44,276 nt of DNA from an uncultured Elusimicrobiales bacterium (GTDB taxonomy: Bacteria; Elusimicrobiota; Elusimicrobia; Elusimicrobiales; Elusimicrobiaceae): contig CALUUY010000008.1 of NCBI GenBank assembly GCA_944324095.1, positions 1 through 44,276 on the forward strand, in the 5' to 3' direction. Positions within the stretch are counted from its first letter, which is position 1, and the number at the start of each line of letters is the position of its first letter. Positions 26,735 through 44,030 of the stretch are shown piece by piece. Under the pieces are notes generated by a model that saw only the letters and a list, made by a program, of their open reading frames with translations, did no database searches and was not told where the DNA came from. The translations under genes were made by a program, and so were the position numbers.

Positions 26735-27220
26735 TTAATTGCAAACAAAGTCATTGGTACTTTTCATACCGTACACAGCACATTTGTCTTCACCACCGGT
26801 ACACCAAAAAGCACCACCCAAATCACCCGTATTATCAAACCAAAAAGACACTCCGGCTGTATCCCCCTCGTTACGAGAACAGCAAATCCAATTTGGGTTA
26901 GACGAAGGGAAAAAGCGATACGTAAAAGCATCTGTTCTTAACGTAGCGCTAGCCCCCTGCCCAGACAACGTGCCGGGAGTCTGCACGTCTAAAGAATTTG
27001 CTGTAAAAGAAGAGGGAATATTAGAGGAAGAAAAACTATCCTGTCCCATAGCATCCAGCATTCTTAATTTAGAATCCCCCATTTTTTTAAGTAGTGCCCG
27101 GGCTTCCGCCCCGCGGGATTTTTCTATTGTTTTTTCATACATAGGCACAGCCATCGTAATTAGCAGTGTCATAATAAGCACAGCCACCAGTAGTTCAACT
27201 AAAGTAAAACCTTTTTTCAT
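26735..27220 (-). CDS. Type IV pilin-like protein
   Basis: This 161-residue protein has a prepilin leader, MKKG then FTLVELLVAVLIMTLLITMAVPMY, with Glu5 of the mature form and cleavage before Phe by a prepilin peptidase. The long N-terminal helix includes KTIEKSRGAEARALLKKMG. The C-terminal half is Cys-rich (WICCSRNE, FWCTGGEDKCAVYG, DFVCN), suggesting disulfide-stabilised loops. It is the third of three minus-strand pilin genes. No assembly ATPase, platform protein or peptidase gene is nearby, so it relies on machinery elsewhere. It could be a minor pilin or a competence pseudopilin. Confidence 0.9.
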   Translation of the reverse strand: MKKGFTLVELLVAVLIMTLLITMAVPMYEKTIEKSRGAEARALLKKMGDSKLRMLDAMGQDSFSSSNIPSSFTANSLDVQTPGTLSGQGASATLRTDAFTYRFFPSSNPNWICCSRNEGDTAGVSFWFDNTGDLGGAFWCTGGEDKCAVYGMKSTNDFVCN

Positions 27221-27231
27221 AACTTAATCTC

Positions 27232-27708
27232 CTAAAAACAACCGCCTTCGGTTTTAGGCAAATCATATATATCACAAGCGGCCTGCGTTCCTACGCAAGA
27301 AACGGTTTGATCGTCCCGATGGAAAACAATACAGGTTCCGCCGTATGTACCGCCGCTGCGTTTGGCGGCAATTACGTCCCCCGCCGTAAACTTATACGTA
27401 AAGTTAGTAGTGGCTAAAGTAGCATCTTTTGCCATACTGACACCGCGGTCCTGAAACATATCCAAGCGGCCGATGCCAATATCGTTAGTGGGTGGATTAT
27501 TATATAAAGAATTATAATCATCATACCCAAAATCCGCCGCCAAACGCTCACTGGAATCATACAATGTTTTTAAAGAAGACATAGCTTCCGCCGCGCGAGC
27601 GCGTTCCACCACTCTGCGGTATTGGGGCAAAGCAATGGCCGACAGTACCCCTATAATGAGCACCACCGTTAAAATTTCCACCAGAGTAAAACCTTTTTTA
27701 TTTATCAT
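27232..27708 (-). CDS. Type IV pilin-like protein
   Basis: This 158-residue protein has the leader MINKKG then FTLVEILTVVLIIGVLSAIALPQYRRVVERARAAEA, a standard class III signal and N-terminal pilin helix. The C-terminal domain has several cysteines (GTCIVFH, QTVSCVGTQAACDIYD, GGCF at the end), including a Cys near the C-terminus like its neighbours. The mature N-terminal helix is very close to the gene upstream (ALPQYRRxxxRAR), so the cluster probably arose by duplication. It is 11 nt from the next pilin gene and co-transcribed with it. Confidence 0.92.
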   Translation of the reverse strand: MINKKGFTLVEILTVVLIIGVLSAIALPQYRRVVERARAAEAMSSLKTLYDSSERLAADFGYDDYNSLYNNPPTNDIGIGRLDMFQDRGVSMAKDATLATTNFTYKFTAGDVIAAKRSGGTYGGTCIVFHRDDQTVSCVGTQAACDIYDLPKTEGGCF

Positions 27709-27718
27709 AGTTTATCCT

Positions 27719-28168
27719 TTAAAAACAGCTTAGATCACTCTTATTAAAATTAAATACTTCCTCGCAAATATTTGAGGTTCCACAACAATACATTTTATTT
27801 CCATCATACGAAAATACGGTACCCTTGACTTCTCTGCCTTTTAATAATTTAGCCGTTACCGCAAGGCCGTTAGACAAGTCATATTCATAATTAGCCGTAG
27901 TAATCTTAGTCCCGTCAATACCGGTGGCCCCTTTTACGCCAATATCCAACATTTTAGCGTTAAACCCACTAGCTCCCCCAAAGGAAGGGTATCCGTTTTC
28001 CACAGCCCAACGTTCGCGCGATTCATACATAGGCGCCAACATACTTTCCGCTTCGGCAACGCGGGCGCGGTTTAAACTGCGGCGATACTGCGGCAAAGCA
28101 ATGGCAGAAAGCATACCCATTATCAGCACCACCGCCAACAATTCAATAAGCGTAAAACCTTTTTTCAT
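27719..28168 (-). CDS. Type IV pilin-like protein
   Basis: From the ATG at 28168 the protein has 149 residues: leader MKKG, mature FTLIELLAVVLIMGMLSAIALPQYRRSLNRARVAEAESML, then a globular domain ending MYCCGTSNICEEVFNFNKSDLSCF. A longer frame to 28252 exists, but the canonical prepilin start is at 28168, directly behind a GGAGG ribosome site. It is first in the three-gene minus-strand pilin operon. A short hairpin precedes its ribosome site in the leader. Confidence 0.92.
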   Translation of the reverse strand: MKKGFTLIELLAVVLIMGMLSAIALPQYRRSLNRARVAEAESMLAPMYESRERWAVENGYPSFGGASGFNAKMLDIGVKGATGIDGTKITTANYEYDLSNGLAVTAKLLKGREVKGTVFSYDGNKMYCCGTSNICEEVFNFNKSDLSCF

Positions 28169-28173
28169 AGCAA

Positions 28174-28229
28174 CCTCCGCTACACATAATAGTGTAGGTT
28201 TTTTAAAAACAATTACAATACCAATTATA
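28174..28229 (-). promoter_or_regulatory. Promoter and leader hairpin of the pilin operon
   Basis: On the minus strand a perfect TATAAT lies at 28229-28224. The predicted leader of about 48 nt contains CTACAC-TATTAT-GTGTAG (28197-28180) placed directly against the GGAGG ribosome site (28178-28174), so folding could affect translation. Confidence 0.45.
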
Positions 28230-28271
28230 GCTAAATAACCCGCCCGGCGCAAAGATTTAGTGCGCTTAATT

Positions 28272-30152: not shown

Positions 30153-30178
30153 CAAAAAACCCGCTTAAAGCGGGTTTA
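30153..30178 (-). terminator. Rho-independent terminator of the MgtE_N-CBS gene
   Basis: On the minus strand AAACCCGCTTTAAGCGGGTTT is followed by TTTG. It overlaps the last codons of the minus-strand gene at 30176. Confidence 0.85.
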
Positions 30179-30946
30179 TTTTTTACGGGTAAAAAAGCTT
30201 CTTAGCTTTGTACGCCAGCCGGGGCGGGCAGAAGTTGGCCATTCAAGCTGTGCGCACGCTACGCCCAAAATTTTACCCTCTTTATCCACCACCGGCAACA
30301 GCGGGCTTTGGGTTTGTTTAAACAAAAAAGCGGCCTGCTGGCAGGTGTCCTTGGGTAACAGCGTGCTGTATTGCGTATTCATTACAGAGCCCAACGCACT
30401 GCCTGCCGGATAAAACAATAATTCTGCCGTAGGGATAATCCCCTTTAATTGCCCGTCTTTAGCCGTTACAAAACACACGGCGGGTAATTTTTTACGCGGC
30501 AAGGTTTTTAAACGTTCCACTGCATCTGCCACTTTGGCATCCGTCTTTAAAGCCACAAAATCCGTACTCATTGTTGCCCCTACGCTGCCAGCCGGATACG
30601 CCAACACCTGCCCCAACAAAGCCACAAATTCCGGCTTGAGCGAGGCGGAAAGTTTTTCCCGGTAGGGGCCGGAAAATTCCTTCATCATACGCGCTGCCTG
30701 CAATACCTCCAAACGGGAAAACACATACGCCCCCTGCCTGGCCGGCAGACGGCGCAAAATGGCCGCCGCTTTACAAGGTTCCATTTGATTAAAGCAGGCT
30801 ATTAACGTTTGCGCTTTTAAAGGGGAAAGCAAAATTAGCGCCTCGTGCGTAGCTAAAGAGGCCAATGCCTTAGCCGCCGCTTCCGGGGCGGCGGTGATAA
30901 ATTTTTCGGTAATTAAGTGGGCCAGTGTTTCGGCAGGGGTAAGCAT
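30176..30946 (-). CDS. Soluble MgtE N-terminal/CBS domain protein
   Basis: This 256-residue protein has an MgtE_N-like helical domain (about residues 10-115; KALASLATHEALILLSPLKAQTLIACFNQMEPCKAAAILRRLPARQGAYVFSRL). A CBS pair follows (about 120-240; GATMSTDFVALKTDAKVADAVERLKTLPRKKLPAVCFVTAKDGQLKGIIP and SVMNTQYSTLLPKDTCQQAAFLFKQTQSPLLPVVDKEGKILGVA). In MgtE channels these two modules sense Mg2+ or nucleotides and gate the pore, but no transmembrane part is present here. It may act in trans on another transporter. A GAGG ribosome site precedes the ATG. It is divergent from the AlbA_2 gene. Confidence 0.85.
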   Translation of the reverse strand: MLTPAETLAHLITEKFITAAPEAAAKALASLATHEALILLSPLKAQTLIACFNQMEPCKAAAILRRLPARQGAYVFSRLEVLQAARMMKEFSGPYREKLSASLKPEFVALLGQVLAYPAGSVGATMSTDFVALKTDAKVADAVERLKTLPRKKLPAVCFVTAKDGQLKGIIPTAELLFYPAGSALGSVMNTQYSTLLPKDTCQQAAFLFKQTQSPLLPVVDKEGKILGVACAQLEWPTSARPGWRTKLRSFFTRKK

Positions 30947-31019
30947 AAAACCTCTTTTGCTTCTAATTATTTTTATTATAATAAATAAACAGGCCCCTAC
31001 GCCAAACGCGAGGTGAAAG

Positions 31020-32201
31020 ATGCTTTTTAATAAACCGATTAACGATTTGACTTTTCAGGATGTGGTGGATTTTTGTAAAAAAGAAATCCCCGAAGGCAAA
31101 CAGCTGGACTATAAATACCAGCTGCCCAAAAATAAAGAAAAATTTGCCAAAACCATAGCCTCTTTTGCTAACGCCTTGGGAGGAACCATCATCATTGGCG
31201 TGCAGGACGATAAAAACGATAAACCCGCCCCCCCGTTTACGGGTATTGCCTATCACGAAAAAATCCGTAACACCATAGAAGACATTATTCAGGTGTATAT
31301 AGACCCCATTGTATTTGTGGACATTAATACCTGCATTGGCCCCAACAACCGTATGTTTGTGGTCATTAACATTCCGCAAAGCAACTTAACGCCGCATTTG
31401 GTGGGTAAAAGCAAAAGGGCCTATGTAAGAACCGGCCAAAGCAGCCGGCCGGAAATTATCGTGCACCCGGCCAAATTGCCGTGGCTGTTGGATCACCGTA
31501 AAAAATCCGAACGGCTGCGCCATATTTTATACGACAAGGCCGAAAGCCACTTTGATAATTATCTTAAAATGAAAAACATCCGTCCGGACGGGTTACCTAT
31601 TTGCACGCTTTCCGTTTCTCCCCTATACCCGGAAGAACCGCTGACGGACTATAAACGCCTGCCGCAATTAATTAAAGAATGCACCACCCAGGCCTGGTTT
31701 GGGGCGCTGCCCGGGGAAGATTTCCCTCTCCAGCCCGTGCAAGACGGCATCAGCGTAATCAGCAACCTAAAAGACGTACACAAAACCACAGAATTTAATG
31801 CCTACGGCTTACTGATGGACAAACGCATCGCCGGAGAAAACAAAACCTTCAACGGGCACAAAGCCCGCGTGGTAAGCGTGGAAAAACTAGCGCAGGAATT
31901 AGTGCTGTTTTTTGTAACCGCCATCAAATATCTAAACAAAATATCGTTTGGCGGGTCTTTGTATTTCCGTTTAAAAATGAGCCACACCCACGCTCTGCGT
32001 GTATCGTTAGGCAAACAAAAAGCCACCGTGCTGGAAGATTATTTGCGTATGGATAGAACGCTTAACCTGCCGGAACTGGAGGACGGGCTTTCCGCCATTA
32101 CGCAAAATATTTTGCAGGAAGCGGCCTGGGGGCTGGGCATACCGGCTGACGCCCAGTATCTAAAGCATTTGGTGGACGGTTATTTGGGGGACATTGAATG
32201 A
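31020..32201 (+). CDS. AlbA_2 (Schlafen-like, divergent AAA_4) domain protein
   Basis: This 393-residue cytoplasmic protein has, at about residues 22-145, an AlbA_2 domain: EGKQLDYKYQLP with the conserved acidic/Lys strand, AKTIASFANALGGTIIIGVQDD, IPQSNLTPHLVGKSKRAYVRTGQSSRP. This domain is shared with Schlafen proteins and many bacterial putative nucleic-acid-binding or transcriptional regulators. The remaining 250 residues (from LDHRKKSERLRHILYDKAE) match nothing I know. A GAGGTG ribosome site and a TATAAT box (about 30976) lie upstream. It overlaps the SUI1-family gene by 4 nt (ATGA), implying coupled translation. Confidence 0.82.
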   Translation: MLFNKPINDLTFQDVVDFCKKEIPEGKQLDYKYQLPKNKEKFAKTIASFANALGGTIIIGVQDDKNDKPAPPFTGIAYHEKIRNTIEDIIQVYIDPIVFVDINTCIGPNNRMFVVINIPQSNLTPHLVGKSKRAYVRTGQSSRPEIIVHPAKLPWLLDHRKKSERLRHILYDKAESHFDNYLKMKNIRPDGLPICTLSVSPLYPEEPLTDYKRLPQLIKECTTQAWFGALPGEDFPLQPVQDGISVISNLKDVHKTTEFNAYGLLMDKRIAGENKTFNGHKARVVSVEKLAQELVLFFVTAIKYLNKISFGGSLYFRLKMSHTHALRVSLGKQKATVLEDYLRMDRTLNLPELEDGLSAITQNILQEAAWGLGIPADAQYLKHLVDGYLGDIE

Positions 32202-32527
32202 GCGAAGAACTTTTTTATTCTACCGACCCTGCCTTCTGCCCCCATTGCAAGCACATCCCTTGTATATGCAACCGTTTGGGCTCCCCTAAAAAGCAGAGTG
32301 AACCCGTACGCATACGTTTTGTAAAAAATGCCAAAGGCAGCGGTGTGACTCGGGTGGAAAAACTGTCTCTTCACCCGCAGGAAAAAGAGGCTTTATTAAA
32401 AAAAATAAAAAAAGCATTGGGCTGCGGCGGCACCATTAAAGACGGCGCCTTAGAAATACAGGGCGACAAAAAACCCCGCCTGCAAACCATCTTAGAGCAG
32501 GAAGGCTATAAAGTACGCGTGATTTAA
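32198..32527 (+). CDS. SUI1/YciH-family translation initiation factor homolog with Cys-rich N-terminus
   Basis: The C-terminal 75 residues form the eIF1/SUI1 fold: VRIRFVKNAKGSGVTRVEKLSLHPQEKEALLKKIKKALGCGGTIKDGALEIQGDKKPRLQTILEQEGYKVRVI. CGGTIKDGALEIQGD is the diagnostic YciH/SUI1 motif. Bacterial YciH can weakly influence start-site fidelity, but its in vivo role is unclear. The first 30 residues contain C14-P-H-C17 and C22-I-C24, a small zinc-ribbon-like patch. At 109 residues it is the usual YciH size. It overlaps the AlbA_2 gene by 4 nt and is followed 18 nt later by a pilin gene on the same strand. Confidence 0.92.
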   Translation: MSEELFYSTDPAFCPHCKHIPCICNRLGSPKKQSEPVRIRFVKNAKGSGVTRVEKLSLHPQEKEALLKKIKKALGCGGTIKDGALEIQGDKKPRLQTILEQEGYKVRVI

Positions 32528-32545: not shown

Positions 32546-33007
32546 ATGAAACACGGATTTACATTGGTGGAATTATTGGTAGTGGTATTGATTATTGGCA
32601 TTTTATCCGCCATAGCGGTGCCTTATTATTTTAACGCCACCGAAAGCGCCCGCAATACGGAGATTATACTGTTATGGGGCCGCACCAAAAACTTTTACCA
32701 CGGGCGGGTAATGAATGAAGACAGCGCACGCCGCTTGGAAGAACGCTCCAACCAAGATGGTAAATTAAAATATTTTAATGTGTCTATCGTCTGCCGGCCA
32801 GAAGCAGGAAAAGATGTTTGCTGGGAAGCGGATTTCCTGCAAAAAAATCCGGGGCACGTTCAATATAAACTAACCACTACAAACAATTTTGCCCACTTAG
32901 CTTGTATTGGGTTAAATGATGCCGGGAAAGACTTCTGCCTCTCCCGCACAACAGAAGACAACAAAACCACCATAGACGGGCAAGAAGGCTACATCATCCG
33001 CTTTTAG
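32546..33007 (+). CDS. Type IV pilin-like protein (isolated)
   Basis: This 153-residue protein has leader MKHG and mature FTLVELLVVVLIIGILSAIAVPYYFNATESARNTEIILLWG, a standard prepilin N-terminus with Glu5. The C-terminal domain has two Cys pairs (IVCRPEAGKDVCWEAD, LACIGLNDAGKDFCLSR). It is the fourth pilin-like gene here and lies apart from the minus-strand cluster, at the end of the AlbA_2-SUI1 operon behind a CGGAG ribosome site. Its helix differs from the ALPQYRR type of the cluster, so it is a distinct subfamily. Confidence 0.92.
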   Translation: MKHGFTLVELLVVVLIIGILSAIAVPYYFNATESARNTEIILLWGRTKNFYHGRVMNEDSARRLEERSNQDGKLKYFNVSIVCRPEAGKDVCWEADFLQKNPGHVQYKLTTTNNFAHLACIGLNDAGKDFCLSRTTEDNKTTIDGQEGYIIRF

Positions 33008-33053
33008 CGCAGCCTCTGCCAGCAAAACCACAAAAAAACATATTCAAAAAATA

Positions 33054-33083
33054 AAAACCCCCGGTTTTTACCGGGGGCTTTTA
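33054..33083. terminator. Bidirectional terminator
   Basis: CCCCCGG-TTTTTA-CCGGGGG with T-rich flanks on both strands, between the convergent pilin and 33099-33644 genes. Confidence 0.88.
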
Positions 33084-33098
33084 AGCTTAAAGCAATAT

Positions 33099-33644
33099 TT
33101 ATTTAACAGCTAAAGCTAAGCGGAGTTGTTTGGCGGCCATAGCGCTTAACTCGGCTTGGCTCAATTCTTCTTCAGGAGCAATTAACACTTCGAAGGTCTT
33201 GGTGGCAGGCGTTCTATACCGTCCGCAGCCTTGCACTTTAAAACTAATATATAAAGCATCCTCTTTTTCAATTACCGTAATTTGAGCGCCACGCAAATCC
33301 AACCCGGATCTATTTAAAATATGGCTATCTATTTTAATAGCAGCGCCTTTTTGGGTAACCACAGGAACAAAAGAAAACAATAAAGTTCCTTCAGGCGTAC
33401 GAACCGACATATTACCGTTGAAATCAGGGAACTTATAGTGATCTGGCACATAAAACACCCCTTGCGTTTTATATACCTGTAAATCTGTATTTTTAACAAT
33501 ATAAAAATAAGTTTTGCCTTCTTCAAAAGCGGTGGCCTGCTGGTTGTTTAATAAAATACCATCTTTTAAAGAGGTTAATAATTGTTGGGAAAACCCAAGG
33601 CTGGAGAGTCCCAAAAGACATATTAAAGCCAGTATTTTTCTCAT
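33099..33644 (-). CDS. Secreted protein, paralog 1 of a tandem pair
   Basis: This 181-residue exported protein has signal peptide MRKILALICLLGLSSLGFS. It aligns along its length with the next gene: QQLLTSLKDGILLNNQQATAFEEGKTYFYIVKNTDLQVYKTQGVF against QQILTSLRGGVMLNNKQEAAYEEGKTYFYIIENTDLQLYNTRGVF, and both end in SAMAAKQ/ELRLALA-K. The mature part looks beta-rich with one Cys (VQGCGRYRT) and a C-terminal amphipathic helix. No domain is recognised. The gene has its own GGAGG ribosome site and its own upstream hairpins, so it is probably transcribed separately from its paralog. Confidence 0.85.
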   Translation of the reverse strand: MRKILALICLLGLSSLGFSQQLLTSLKDGILLNNQQATAFEEGKTYFYIVKNTDLQVYKTQGVFYVPDHYKFPDFNGNMSVRTPEGTLLFSFVPVVTQKGAAIKIDSHILNRSGLDLRGAQITVIEKEDALYISFKVQGCGRYRTPATKTFEVLIAPEEELSQAELSAMAAKQLRLALAVK

Positions 33645-33831: not shown

Positions 33832-34383
33832 TTATTTAGCGGCTAATGCAAGGCGAAGTTCTTTGGCAGCCATTGCACTTAACTGCTGTGCCGTTAAAGC
33901 GGCAGTATTTTCAGACGGAACTAATATTTCAAAAGTTTTGCTGGCAGATTTTTTCTCCCAACGGCACTGTTTCATCGTAAAGGTTAAGCGTAAACCTTTT
34001 TCGTCTTCCGTTACTTTTAAAGTGGCGCCTTTTAAATCCAACCCGTCCCAATGCAACATTTCGGTATTAATTTTAATAGCCAAACCTTTTTCGGTATTAA
34101 CCGGGTTAAAAGTAAAAGCTAAGGCGCCTTCATATTCATCTTCGGGTTCTTGTTTGCCAAACCAATCTTTTTTGTAATAGTCCGCCACCACAAAAACCCC
34201 GCGGGTGTTGTATAACTGCAAGTCCGTATTTTCAATAATATAAAAATACGTTTTACCTTCTTCATAAGCAGCTTCCTGCTTGTTATTTAACATCACACCG
34301 CCTCTTAAAGAGGTCAATATCTGCTGAGCGAAACCAGCCGTGCCCAGGCACAACATTAAAGCAGCAATTACTACTTTTTTCAT
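33832..34383 (-). CDS. Secreted protein, paralog 2 of a tandem pair
   Basis: This 183-residue exported protein (signal peptide MKKVVIAALMLCLGTAGFA) is homologous to the 33099-33644 product from the first mature residue to the end. Differences cluster in the middle (YYKKDWFGKQEPEDEYEGALAF). The single mature Cys (MKQCRWE) is in the same position as in the paralog. The shared features are a beta-rich body, a conserved AIKIN/AIKID strand and a terminal helix (SAMAAKELRLALA). It may be a periplasmic or surface protein. The GGGAG ribosome site supports the start. Its terminator lies between the paralogs. Confidence 0.85.
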   Translation of the reverse strand: MKKVVIAALMLCLGTAGFAQQILTSLRGGVMLNNKQEAAYEEGKTYFYIIENTDLQLYNTRGVFVVADYYKKDWFGKQEPEDEYEGALAFTFNPVNTEKGLAIKINTEMLHWDGLDLKGATLKVTEDEKGLRLTFTMKQCRWEKKSASKTFEILVPSENTAALTAQQLSAMAAKELRLALAAK

Positions 34384-39384: not shown

Positions 39385-40671
39385 ATGAAATTCTTTTTAA
39401 TCAGCTTAGGCTGCCCCAAAAATCTTACTAACAGCGAGGAGTTTACCGCCCGCCTGCTGGCCCACGGCCACCAGCTGGTATTCACCCCCGAAGAAGCCGA
39501 CACGGTGATCATCAACACCTGCGGTTTTATTTCGTCCGCCGTAAAAGAAGGCAACGAGGAAATCCGCCGCGCGCTGGATTTAAAAAGCCAAGGCGTCATC
39601 AAACGTGTAGCCGTAACCGGCTGTATGGTGGAACGTTATCGCCAAAAGCTGGTAAAAGATTTCCCGGAAGCAGACACTGTTTTCTCTATCTCCGCACAGG
39701 AACATATTGAAGATTTATTGGATAAAGACGGCCTATTTTTAGAGCCGCTTCCCACCAAGCTTTACCTGCCTGAGTTTAAAATGAGCCTTACCGCCCCCCA
39801 TACGGCCTATTTAAAAGTGGCCGACGGCTGCAATAACCGCTGTGCCTATTGCACCATTCCCTCCATACGCGGGCCGTACCGCTCTAAACCTATGGAGCAA
39901 ATTGTAAAAGAAGCCCGCCTAATGGTGCAAAGCGGAGTGAAAGAAATTTCATTAATTGCGCAGGATACCACGTCTTATGGGTTAGATTTGTACGGCGAAT
40001 TAAAACTAACCGAACTCTTGCAAAAACTGCTTAAAATACGCGGTTTGGGGCGCCTGCGCATTATGTATGCCTATCCGCACCGCGTTACGCTGGAGCTGGC
40101 CCGGTTAATGGCGGGAGAGGAAAAAATTTTCCATTATTTGGACATTCCCCTCCAACACATTGCAGACCCGGTGCTTAAAAATATGAACCGCCATTGCGAC
40201 GCGGCCAAAATCCGCCAGACGTTGGATATGCTTAAAAAAGAAGTGCCGGATATTTCCCTGCGTACCAATTTTATTGTTGGCTTTCCGCAGGAAACCCAAA
40301 AAGATTTTGAACAGCTAAAAAAATTCGTGCGGGAATACGAATTTGACAATATGGGCGTGTTTGAATTCTTCCGCGAAAAAGGCACCGCCGCCTATGATAT
40401 GAAGCAAATCCCCGCGGCTGTAAAACATCAGCGCGCCCGCGAGCTGGAAGAAACCCAAAGCCGCGTGATAGACAAAATTAACAAACGCCTCGTAGGTAGC
40501 GTATTAGAGGCTATTGCAGACGGCCCGGATTTTGGACGCACCTATAAAGACGCCCCGGATATTGACGGACGCGTAACTTTTACCCGCCCCGTAACCCCCG
40601 GCCTTATTTTTAAAGCCCGCGTGGTGGCCGCCCAAGGCTATGAACGGGAACTGGAACCGCTTATCAAATAG
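39385..40671 (+). CDS. rimO: Ribosomal protein S12 methylthiotransferase
   Basis: RimO adds a methylthio group to an Asp of ribosomal protein S12 using two [4Fe-4S] clusters and SAM. The 428-residue protein has the N-terminal UPF0004 domain cysteines (Cys10 in SLGCPKN, about Cys46 in NTCGF, about Cys80 in TGCMVERY). The radical-SAM motif CNNRCAYC starts near residue 149, and a C-terminal TRAM domain (about 365-425) ends the protein. LGCPKNLTNSE at the start and YAYPH separate RimO from MiaB-type enzymes. It stands alone between trkH and a convergent gene. Confidence 0.95.
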   Translation: MKFFLISLGCPKNLTNSEEFTARLLAHGHQLVFTPEEADTVIINTCGFISSAVKEGNEEIRRALDLKSQGVIKRVAVTGCMVERYRQKLVKDFPEADTVFSISAQEHIEDLLDKDGLFLEPLPTKLYLPEFKMSLTAPHTAYLKVADGCNNRCAYCTIPSIRGPYRSKPMEQIVKEARLMVQSGVKEISLIAQDTTSYGLDLYGELKLTELLQKLLKIRGLGRLRIMYAYPHRVTLELARLMAGEEKIFHYLDIPLQHIADPVLKNMNRHCDAAKIRQTLDMLKKEVPDISLRTNFIVGFPQETQKDFEQLKKFVREYEFDNMGVFEFFREKGTAAYDMKQIPAAVKHQRARELEETQSRVIDKINKRLVGSVLEAIADGPDFGRTYKDAPDIDGRVTFTRPVTPGLIFKARVVAAQGYERELEPLIK

Positions 40672-42920: not shown

Positions 42921-43526
42921 CTATAAATAAGGCTTGATGGCTTTATGTACTTTTTGGGCCACTATTTCATAACCGGCGGCATTGGGGTGGATGGGATCGG
43001 CCTTATACTTATTTTTGCCAAAGATACCGTCCAAAATACCGGGCACAAAAAGGGCCTGTTTCTCTTTGGCTATTTGTTTGTAAAGTTTGGTATAGCGGCT
43101 CATACCGGGGTATCCGCCAGTGTCCACCAGAACGGCAATGGCTCCGGCTTGTTGTACTTCGTCAACAATATGGCGAATAGCTTGTTCGGTTTGTTCAAAA
43201 GGCACACTGCGCATAAAGTCATTTCCGCCAAATTCTATCAGCACCATATACGGGTTATTTTGAAGCACTTGCCCCAAGCGTGAAGGTGCATTGGCGGCAG
43301 TATCGCCGGATAAGCCCAAATTTACCACCGGGCGGTTAATCATACGCGCCAAAACAGCAGGGTAAGATTTGTCTTTCCCGGCGCCGTAACCGGCGGTGAG
43401 GCTATCCCCAAAGGCCACAATGTTTTGGCCGGAGTTGTGTAAATTTTTTATTTCCGGTGTTGTTGCGCCACGCATAAACCAAACCACAAATATAATTACA
43501 AAAAGCCATAAAATGTATTTTTTCAT
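42921..43526 (-). CDS. GDSL-type esterase/arylesterase (TesA-like), membrane-anchored or exported
   Basis: This 201-residue protein has a hydrophobic N-terminal segment (ILWLFVIIFVVWF, residues 5-17), a signal anchor or signal peptide. The SGNH hydrolase blocks follow in order: AFGDSLTAGYG with nucleophile Ser42, NLGLSGDTA with the oxyanion Gly, FGGNDFMR with the Asn, and DPIHPNAAGY with the catalytic Asp/His. This matches TesA-type esterase/lysophospholipase. The likely site of action is the periplasm. It is divergent from cdd, with only 66 nt between the start codons. Confidence 0.92.
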   Translation of the reverse strand: MKKYILWLFVIIFVVWFMRGATTPEIKNLHNSGQNIVAFGDSLTAGYGAGKDKSYPAVLARMINRPVVNLGLSGDTAANAPSRLGQVLQNNPYMVLIEFGGNDFMRSVPFEQTEQAIRHIVDEVQQAGAIAVLVDTGGYPGMSRYTKLYKQIAKEKQALFVPGILDGIFGKNKYKADPIHPNAAGYEIVAQKVHKAIKPYL

Positions 43527-43592: not shown

Positions 43593-44030
43593 ATGAAGAA
43601 ACCGACGAAAAAAGATTTAACCACCGCCCTTTTGGATGCTGCACAAGCAGCACGGGAAAATTCGTATTCCCCCTACTCCAAGTTTAAAGTAGGGGCAGCC
43701 GTTTTAACCCGCAGCGGACGCATTTACACGGGTACCAATATAGAGAACTCCTCTTTTGGCTTAACCGTTTGTGCGGAACGCAATGCCGTATTTGCGGCAG
43801 TGGGAGCCGGAGAAAGAGAGCTGGTAGCTTTGGCGCTGGTAACCGAAAAACTGCCGGGAGCAAAAGTAAACTCTCCCTGCGGGGCCTGCCGCCAAGTATT
43901 GGCAGAATTTATGAAACCCAATGCACCCATCTATATGGCTATGCTGGACGGGGTAAAACGCGTTGTGGTTAAAAAAACACTAAAAGATTTAATACCGCTG
44001 GTGTTTAACCTTACTACTACTAAAAAATAA
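43593..44030 (+). CDS. cdd: Cytidine deaminase
   Basis: Cdd deaminates cytidine and deoxycytidine to uridine and deoxyuridine in pyrimidine salvage. The 145-residue protein is the short, homotetrameric class. It shows SPYSKFKVGAAVLT, NIENSSFGLTVCAERNAV (zinc ligand Cys and catalytic Glu in C-A-E) and PCGACRQVLAEF with the other two zinc Cys. The ATG is 6 nt behind the -10, with no Shine-Dalgarno. A terminator-like hairpin follows. It complements dut in pyrimidine deoxynucleotide handling. Confidence 0.96.
   Translation: MKKPTKKDLTTALLDAAQAARENSYSPYSKFKVGAAVLTRSGRIYTGTNIENSSFGLTVCAERNAVFAAVGAGERELVALALVTEKLPGAKVNSPCGACRQVLAEFMKPNAPIYMAMLDGVKRVVVKKTLKDLIPLVFNLTTTKK

Follow-up and report, generated by a model that had tools for sequence, protein, structure and literature searches.

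The window analysed here, the whole stretch of 44,276 nucleotides, comes from a Candidatus Avelusimicrobium-group genome (Elusimicrobiaceae), whose near relatives are gut metagenome assemblies. The locus examined encodes a Schlafen-type AlbA_2 protein, a SUI1/YciH-type protein and a pseudopilin on one strand and a soluble MgtE_N-CBS protein on the other, with the following features:

30176-30946, - strand: soluble protein of 256 amino acids with MgtE_N and CBS domains and without a channel domain, divergent from the AlbA_2 gene
30977-30982, + strand: TATAAT read from the sequence, a possible -10 element of the operon
31010-31016, + strand: GAGGTGA, the 7-nt Shine-Dalgarno match of the AlbA_2 gene
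31020-32201, + strand: open reading frame of 393 amino acids, AlbA_2 (Schlafen-type) protein
31092-31451, + strand: AlbA_2 domain, residues 25-144 (Pfam)
31092-31115, + strand: putative catalytic motif E25-xxxx-D30-Y31-K32 (alignment of 59 rows)
31206-31211, + strand: D63-D64, matching the tandem aspartates in SLFN14 (alignment and HMMER)
31551-32198, + strand: C-terminal domain (residues 178-393) of the AlbA_2 protein, without a described family
32198-32201, + strand: ATGA overlap of the AlbA_2 stop and the SUI1 start, read from the sequence
32198-32527, + strand: open reading frame of 109 amino acids, SUI1/YciH-type protein
32237-32269, + strand: Cys14-x2-Cys17-x4-Cys22-x-Cys24, putative zinc knuckle of SUI1
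32546-33007, + strand: pseudopilin (type IV pilin-like; N_methyl E 2e-7), third gene of the unit
33052-33083, strand.: hairpin of 14 pairs found by a scan, probable terminator for this unit and for the convergent gene at 33099

The pseudopilin gene starts 18 bases beyond the end of SUI1, and the hairpin probably ends the AlbA_2-SUI1-pseudopilin unit. At the upstream side, the candidate TATAAT lies some 40 bases from the AlbA_2 start, which implies a short leader; it is absent from the + strand output of a consensus promoter scan. Given this element and the 7-nt Shine-Dalgarno match, AlbA_2 is probably not leaderless, and a Shine-Dalgarno-like sequence precedes its orthologues too. SUI1 has no good site of its own (a match of at most 3 nt) and, as it overlaps AlbA_2 by ATGA, its translation probably depends on coupling. 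A sequence-only reading of this DNA had reported the overlap, which we confirmed, and had concluded that the two proteins are made together; the poor SUI1 site fits that conclusion, and it is from these two features that we infer translational coupling. Several pseudopilin genes with GFTLVE/GFTLIE N-termini are found in the window, at 26735-28252 (-) and 32546-33007 (+), and relatives carry further pseudopilin genes near AlbA_2. Two related adjacent open reading frames with signal-peptide-like starts, 33099-33644 (-) and 33832-34383 (-), vary in copy number and completeness among close relatives.

The same reading saw signs that the genome uses leaderless mRNAs and, as speculation, linked the eIF1-like factor to initiation on them. 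Leaderless genes do not predominate: Shine-Dalgarno matches of at least 5 nt precede 19 of the 41 genes in the window, against a mean of 7.7 in shuffled sequence. We compared ten of the 18 genomes that carry SUI1 with ten that do not, picked for long contigs and represented by stretches of 14-20 kb. Matches of this length were as common with SUI1 (122/279 genes) as without (140/303; Mann-Whitney p 0.47), and so were TATAAT-adjacent starts lacking a Shine-Dalgarno sequence (44/279 and 39/303, p 0.21), so that the proposed link failed this comparison. Three genes of the window, 42921-43526 (-), 43593-44030 (+) and 39385-40671 (+), are AT-rich directly before their ATG, with a Shine-Dalgarno match below 4 nt; they are possibly leaderless, and would be a minority.

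The family assignment of the AlbA_2 protein was upheld by Pfam, where SLFN_AlbA_2 (PF04326) matched residues 25-144 at 68.6 bits (cut-off 25.3, E 8.9e-19). The AF2 model of the protein had a mean pLDDT of 85.3 and was poor at residues 123-157. Residues 1-129 of the model superposed on SLFN14 with Z 11.4 and rmsd 2.7 over 118 aligned residues, comparisons with Schlafen lobes gave Z 9.5-11.4 over about 118 residues with a single lobe aligned, and the tRNase domain of rSAMD9 gave Z 6.8. The modelled fold of the domain is that of a Schlafen nuclease lobe. In an alignment of 59 rows E25, D30, Y31, K32 and D63 were invariant and D64 was conserved in at least 90%. HMMER placed the D63-D64 stretch on the GVDD region of SLFN14 and, in an ungapped alignment, E25 opposite E211; the Pfam match begins at residue 25 with profile position 1, which suits E25 as the first Glu. 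These alignments suggest a register of the motif on SLFN14.

The Schlafen consensus motif is given as ExxxxExK in the available part of one report (PMC12215978), and the subfamily of the window departs from it by an invariant ExxxxDYK, with D for E. Distant homologues outside the family keep ExxxxDYK, and E stands at the place of D30 in all 11 motifs read by pattern among 15 other AlbA_2 loci. Since the consensus is not matched and the change is conservative, we filed the protein under the PF04326 domain family and not as a Schlafen RNase. It shares with the nuclease lobes of SLFN11, SLFN13 and SLFN14 the Pfam family, the fold, an acidic motif followed by K and the tandem Asp, and with the tRNase domain of SAMD9 the fold, but it differs from the Schlafen RNases in its ExxxxDYK, in the single lobe that aligned, where those enzymes have a two-lobed N-terminal nuclease region, and in a C-terminal domain that Pfam does not match.

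With D30 where the consensus has E, the activity could differ or be lost, and the protein might be a non-catalytic nucleic-acid-binding regulator that keeps the motif for binding or structure; the AlbA2 domain of SAMD9 was, according to the accessible text of PMC11221667, solved with DNA. We consider such a regulator unlikely, as E25, D30, K32 and D63 do not vary, the motif is retained beyond the family, and D for E is a mild exchange.

The C-terminal region of about 250 residues, described from the sequence as unrecognised, remains so: 249 residues lie beyond the AlbA_2 match, and Pfam found nothing in residues 178-393 of the window protein, nor in the domain of 5 relatives. Modelled alone, this domain reached a pLDDT of 95.9 and a pTM of 0.92. 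A search of PDB sequences returned just one flagellin at E 0.1, and Foldseek gave nothing at E ≤ 0.001, its TBP-like matches reaching E 2.3e-2 at best (prob 0.33). The best structural match was a weak one to AdoMet decarboxylase (Z 7.2, rmsd 3.8, 131 residues aligned), and unrelated folds followed next in the list at 5.4; we regard the apparent AdoMet-decarboxylase-like fold of the model as too weak to be relied upon. AdoMet decarboxylase has a self-processing serine preceded by Glu. In 44 aligned rows of our domain none of the invariant or almost invariant positions is a serine, and the function was rejected for want of a conserved serine and because the fold match is weak.

The SUI1 identity proposed for the second gene was likewise borne out, as Pfam SUI1 (PF01253) matched residues 34-105 at 53 bits (cut-off 25.5, E 5e-14). 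Matches in the PDB included E. coli YciH (1d1r, E 2.1e-12) and archaeal aIF1 (4mo0, E 1.4e-9). The SUI1 domain is common to the window protein and E. coli YciH, but their alignment begins only at residue 36 of the former, which also scores 72.1 bits against the YciH equivalog of NCBIfam (TIGR01158), under its cut-off of 111.65. E. coli YciH itself is reportedly, by the title of a 2015 study, unlikely to act in initiation fidelity. The N-terminal cysteines (Cys14, 17, 22 and 24) are present as described from the sequence but are not the added feature they were taken for, since 33 of the 40 Elusimicrobiota SUI1 proteins compared have the same CX2CX4CXC motif. Judged by its sequence the patch is ordinary for the phylum and resembles the zinc knuckle of archaeal aIF1, with putative zinc binding. 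In the accessible portion of a survey of 744 archaeal aIF1 sequences (PMC6237735), 64% are reported to have a putative zinc knuckle; many aIF1 have a four-Cys N-terminus like that of the window protein, but with the spacing CX2CGLPX3CxC.

We then followed the two genes through Elusimicrobiota. Among 90 Elusimicrobiaceae genomes an AlbA_2 orthologue was found in 81 and SUI1 in 19. Eighteen of the latter are among the 66 genomes of the host genus, the window included; the 19th (G070, another genus) has a fragmentary SUI1 match where a contig ends. SUI1 immediately follows AlbA_2 on its 3′ side in every one of the 18 host-genus genomes, as read directly in 17 and, in G014, from an AlbA_2 3′ end that shares contig C134 with SUI1. 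Counted by loci on named contigs, SUI1 was in the available flank of 15 of 75 AlbA_2 loci, each time directly behind AlbA_2. The overlap at the SUI1+ loci besides the window is a 1-nt one of TAATG type in 15/16. At least 40 host-genus loci (40 of the 56 read through) have AlbA_2 but no SUI1; at 28 of these 40 the AlbA_2 stop overlaps the pseudopilin start by ATGA; a co-oriented pseudopilin gene stands behind AlbA_2 in 54/57 host-genus loci.

Linkage was seen in none of the 19 genomes with both genes in the sister family f2 of the same order, where SUI1 and the AlbA_2-domain gene are on separate contigs in 18 and about 110 kb apart in the other (G072), some of the contigs ending near the gene. 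The surroundings of 20 SUI1 loci in f2 and further families, scanned for about 5 kb each side where the contig permitted, contained no match to the AlbA_2 profile. A plasmid search with SUI1 gave solely proteobacterial YciH-type relatives (15 records), and a literature search missing most subscription papers and bioRxiv returned no paper on the pair. The pairing is real, then, and strict where SUI1 is present, yet optional. Two AlbA_2 orthologues carry in-frame TAA codons (two in G066:C1:609164-610261, one in G300:C39:13632-14717) and are perhaps decaying copies. In genus g3 (L182 and other loci) a gene for an FAD-dependent oxidoreductase is often downstream of AlbA_2.

In a tree of 60 AlbA_2 proteins, from which the truncated G014 row was omitted, the SUI1+ rows formed two clades (5 and 12 rows) flanking a deep split. 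The pairing is not peculiar to the genome of the window, the case in which the sequence-only reading was to count as refuted. The tree needs two changes of SUI1 state, either two losses or two gains. We prefer an ancestral order AlbA_2-SUI1-pilin followed by two clean losses of SUI1, because SUI1 occupies the identical position in both clades and their SUI1 proteins group against all others (100/99); two gains at one site are the less favoured, still viable alternative. Protein identity between the clades is high for SUI1 (78%) beside 67% for AlbA_2, 56% for MgtE_N-CBS and 54% for the pilin. Clade A was paraphyletic in a first SUI1 tree; an AU test, for which six outgroup rows of that tree were left out, did not reject a single clade (p 0.122), and the fraction of fourfold sites identical between the clades is similar for SUI1 (0.45) and AlbA_2 (0.52). 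On these two results a recent horizontal arrival of SUI1 was dropped. Within its clade the SUI1 of the window has diverged furthest, with 76-78% identity to its four mates, against 92-94% for AlbA_2.

These data bear on the proposal, first made from the sequence, that AlbA_2 and SUI1 make up a module dedicated to translation control. Spelled out, SUI1 would either recruit the nuclease to the start codon or 30S subunit or antagonise it, and the overlap would fix their ratio. Adjacency in 18/18 genomes is more than expected of a random passenger, the genes overlap, the arrangement recurs in two clades distant within the genus tree, and the matched fourfold divergence needs no recent transfer. 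This part of the proposal stood. However, relatives mostly keep AlbA_2 without SUI1, so that the pair is not obligatory, the genes are unlinked in the sister family, and the AlbA_2-pseudopilin junction has the same type of overlap. Moreover, an alignment that lacked L105, a SUI1+ row, and the truncated L073 yielded one SUI1-specific AlbA_2 column (S131), against 0-2 for 16 control labels, which leaves a contact through such residues unsupported. We judge a dedicated module improbable.

A more lasting associate of AlbA_2 is the soluble MgtE_N-CBS protein (Pfam MgtE_N E 4.1e-8, CBS E 3.9e-12 in the window), which is encoded divergently no more than 1.3 kb from AlbA_2 at 56 of 57 host-genus loci; at the single exception the AlbA_2 start is 197 bases from the contig end. 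In genus g3 it lies beside AlbA_2 at 10 of 15 loci, and in genus g2 at neither of two. FKBP and guaC, the upstream neighbours in the window, were in the examined stretch of just 4/57 loci. A dUTPase gene adjoins MgtE_N-CBS in genus g3. The 90 family genomes divide into 76 with MgtE_N and AlbA_2, five with AlbA_2 alone, three with MgtE_N alone and six with neither, counts that are blurred by genes missing from fragmented assemblies and by related genomes not being independent. MgtE_N is thus found in 79/90, and the channel domain PF01769 is missing from 88/90; the two genomes that have it are without AlbA_2. It was not found in the assembly of the window (88.75% complete).

Matches in the PDB extended over both domains of the protein (8gpv, E 3e-10; 2yvy, E 7.6e-10), which resembles the cytoplasmic region of MgtE in having the N domain and CBS but lacks the plug helix and the channel. 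We compared it with the Thermus MgtE sites E59, D91 and D95, taken from the available part of PMC5882242. In an alignment of low identity the non-acidic A50 and Q83 stand opposite E59 and D95, while D91 has a gap opposite it, next to E80. The lost plug helix and the A50/Q83 counterparts count against a simple magnesium sensor. One could imagine a family-wide control pair, in which this pore-less MgtE half, short of Mg-binding equipment, gates a Schlafen-type RNase with a new C-terminal domain, and in which, in two lineages, an eIF1-like third part steers the nuclease to initiating ribosomes; taken as a whole, this scheme is a long shot.

Defence genes are usually patchy in distribution. AlbA_2 occurs almost throughout the family, usually in one copy and among stable neighbours, and a phage search and a scan of viral contigs gave no relatives of it; its presence in 81/90 genomes and this lack of phage and viral-contig relatives point to a core gene. 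An anti-phage abortive-infection effector like those reported for bacterial Schlafens is accordingly very improbable, despite a weak PADLOC match (E 0.0032) and the ties of Schlafen RNases to defence loci described in the accessible text of PMC12839542.

The reading we favour, with a probability of about 0.5, is that AlbA_2 encodes a Schlafen-type RNase that is inherited vertically and has SUI1 as an optional operon neighbour. The gene would belong to the core of Elusimicrobiaceae. The N-terminal domain of its product would most likely act as a metal-dependent endoribonuclease on structured RNA, for example tRNA, with E25, D30, K32 and D63 as the putative residues of RNA cleavage. For the C-terminal domain the most likely role is to bind a regulator or to form a dimer, and the regulator would probably be the divergently encoded MgtE_N-CBS protein. 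Two lineages also have an ordinary SUI1/YciH gene in the operon, whose product would be made through translational coupling, as a co-expressed, dispensable neighbour that perhaps adds initiation control; joint action with AlbA_2 may occur, but SUI1 would not be a required partner.

Should AlbA_2 prove to be an active RNase, a whole bacterial family would have retained a Schlafen-type enzyme for a housekeeping role, in contrast to the cited reports on bacterial Schlafens, which concern defence. The link to SUI1 as first proposed matters less, being optional. The channel-less MgtE half encoded beside AlbA_2 offers a testable clue to the way in which an RNase of this kind may be restrained.
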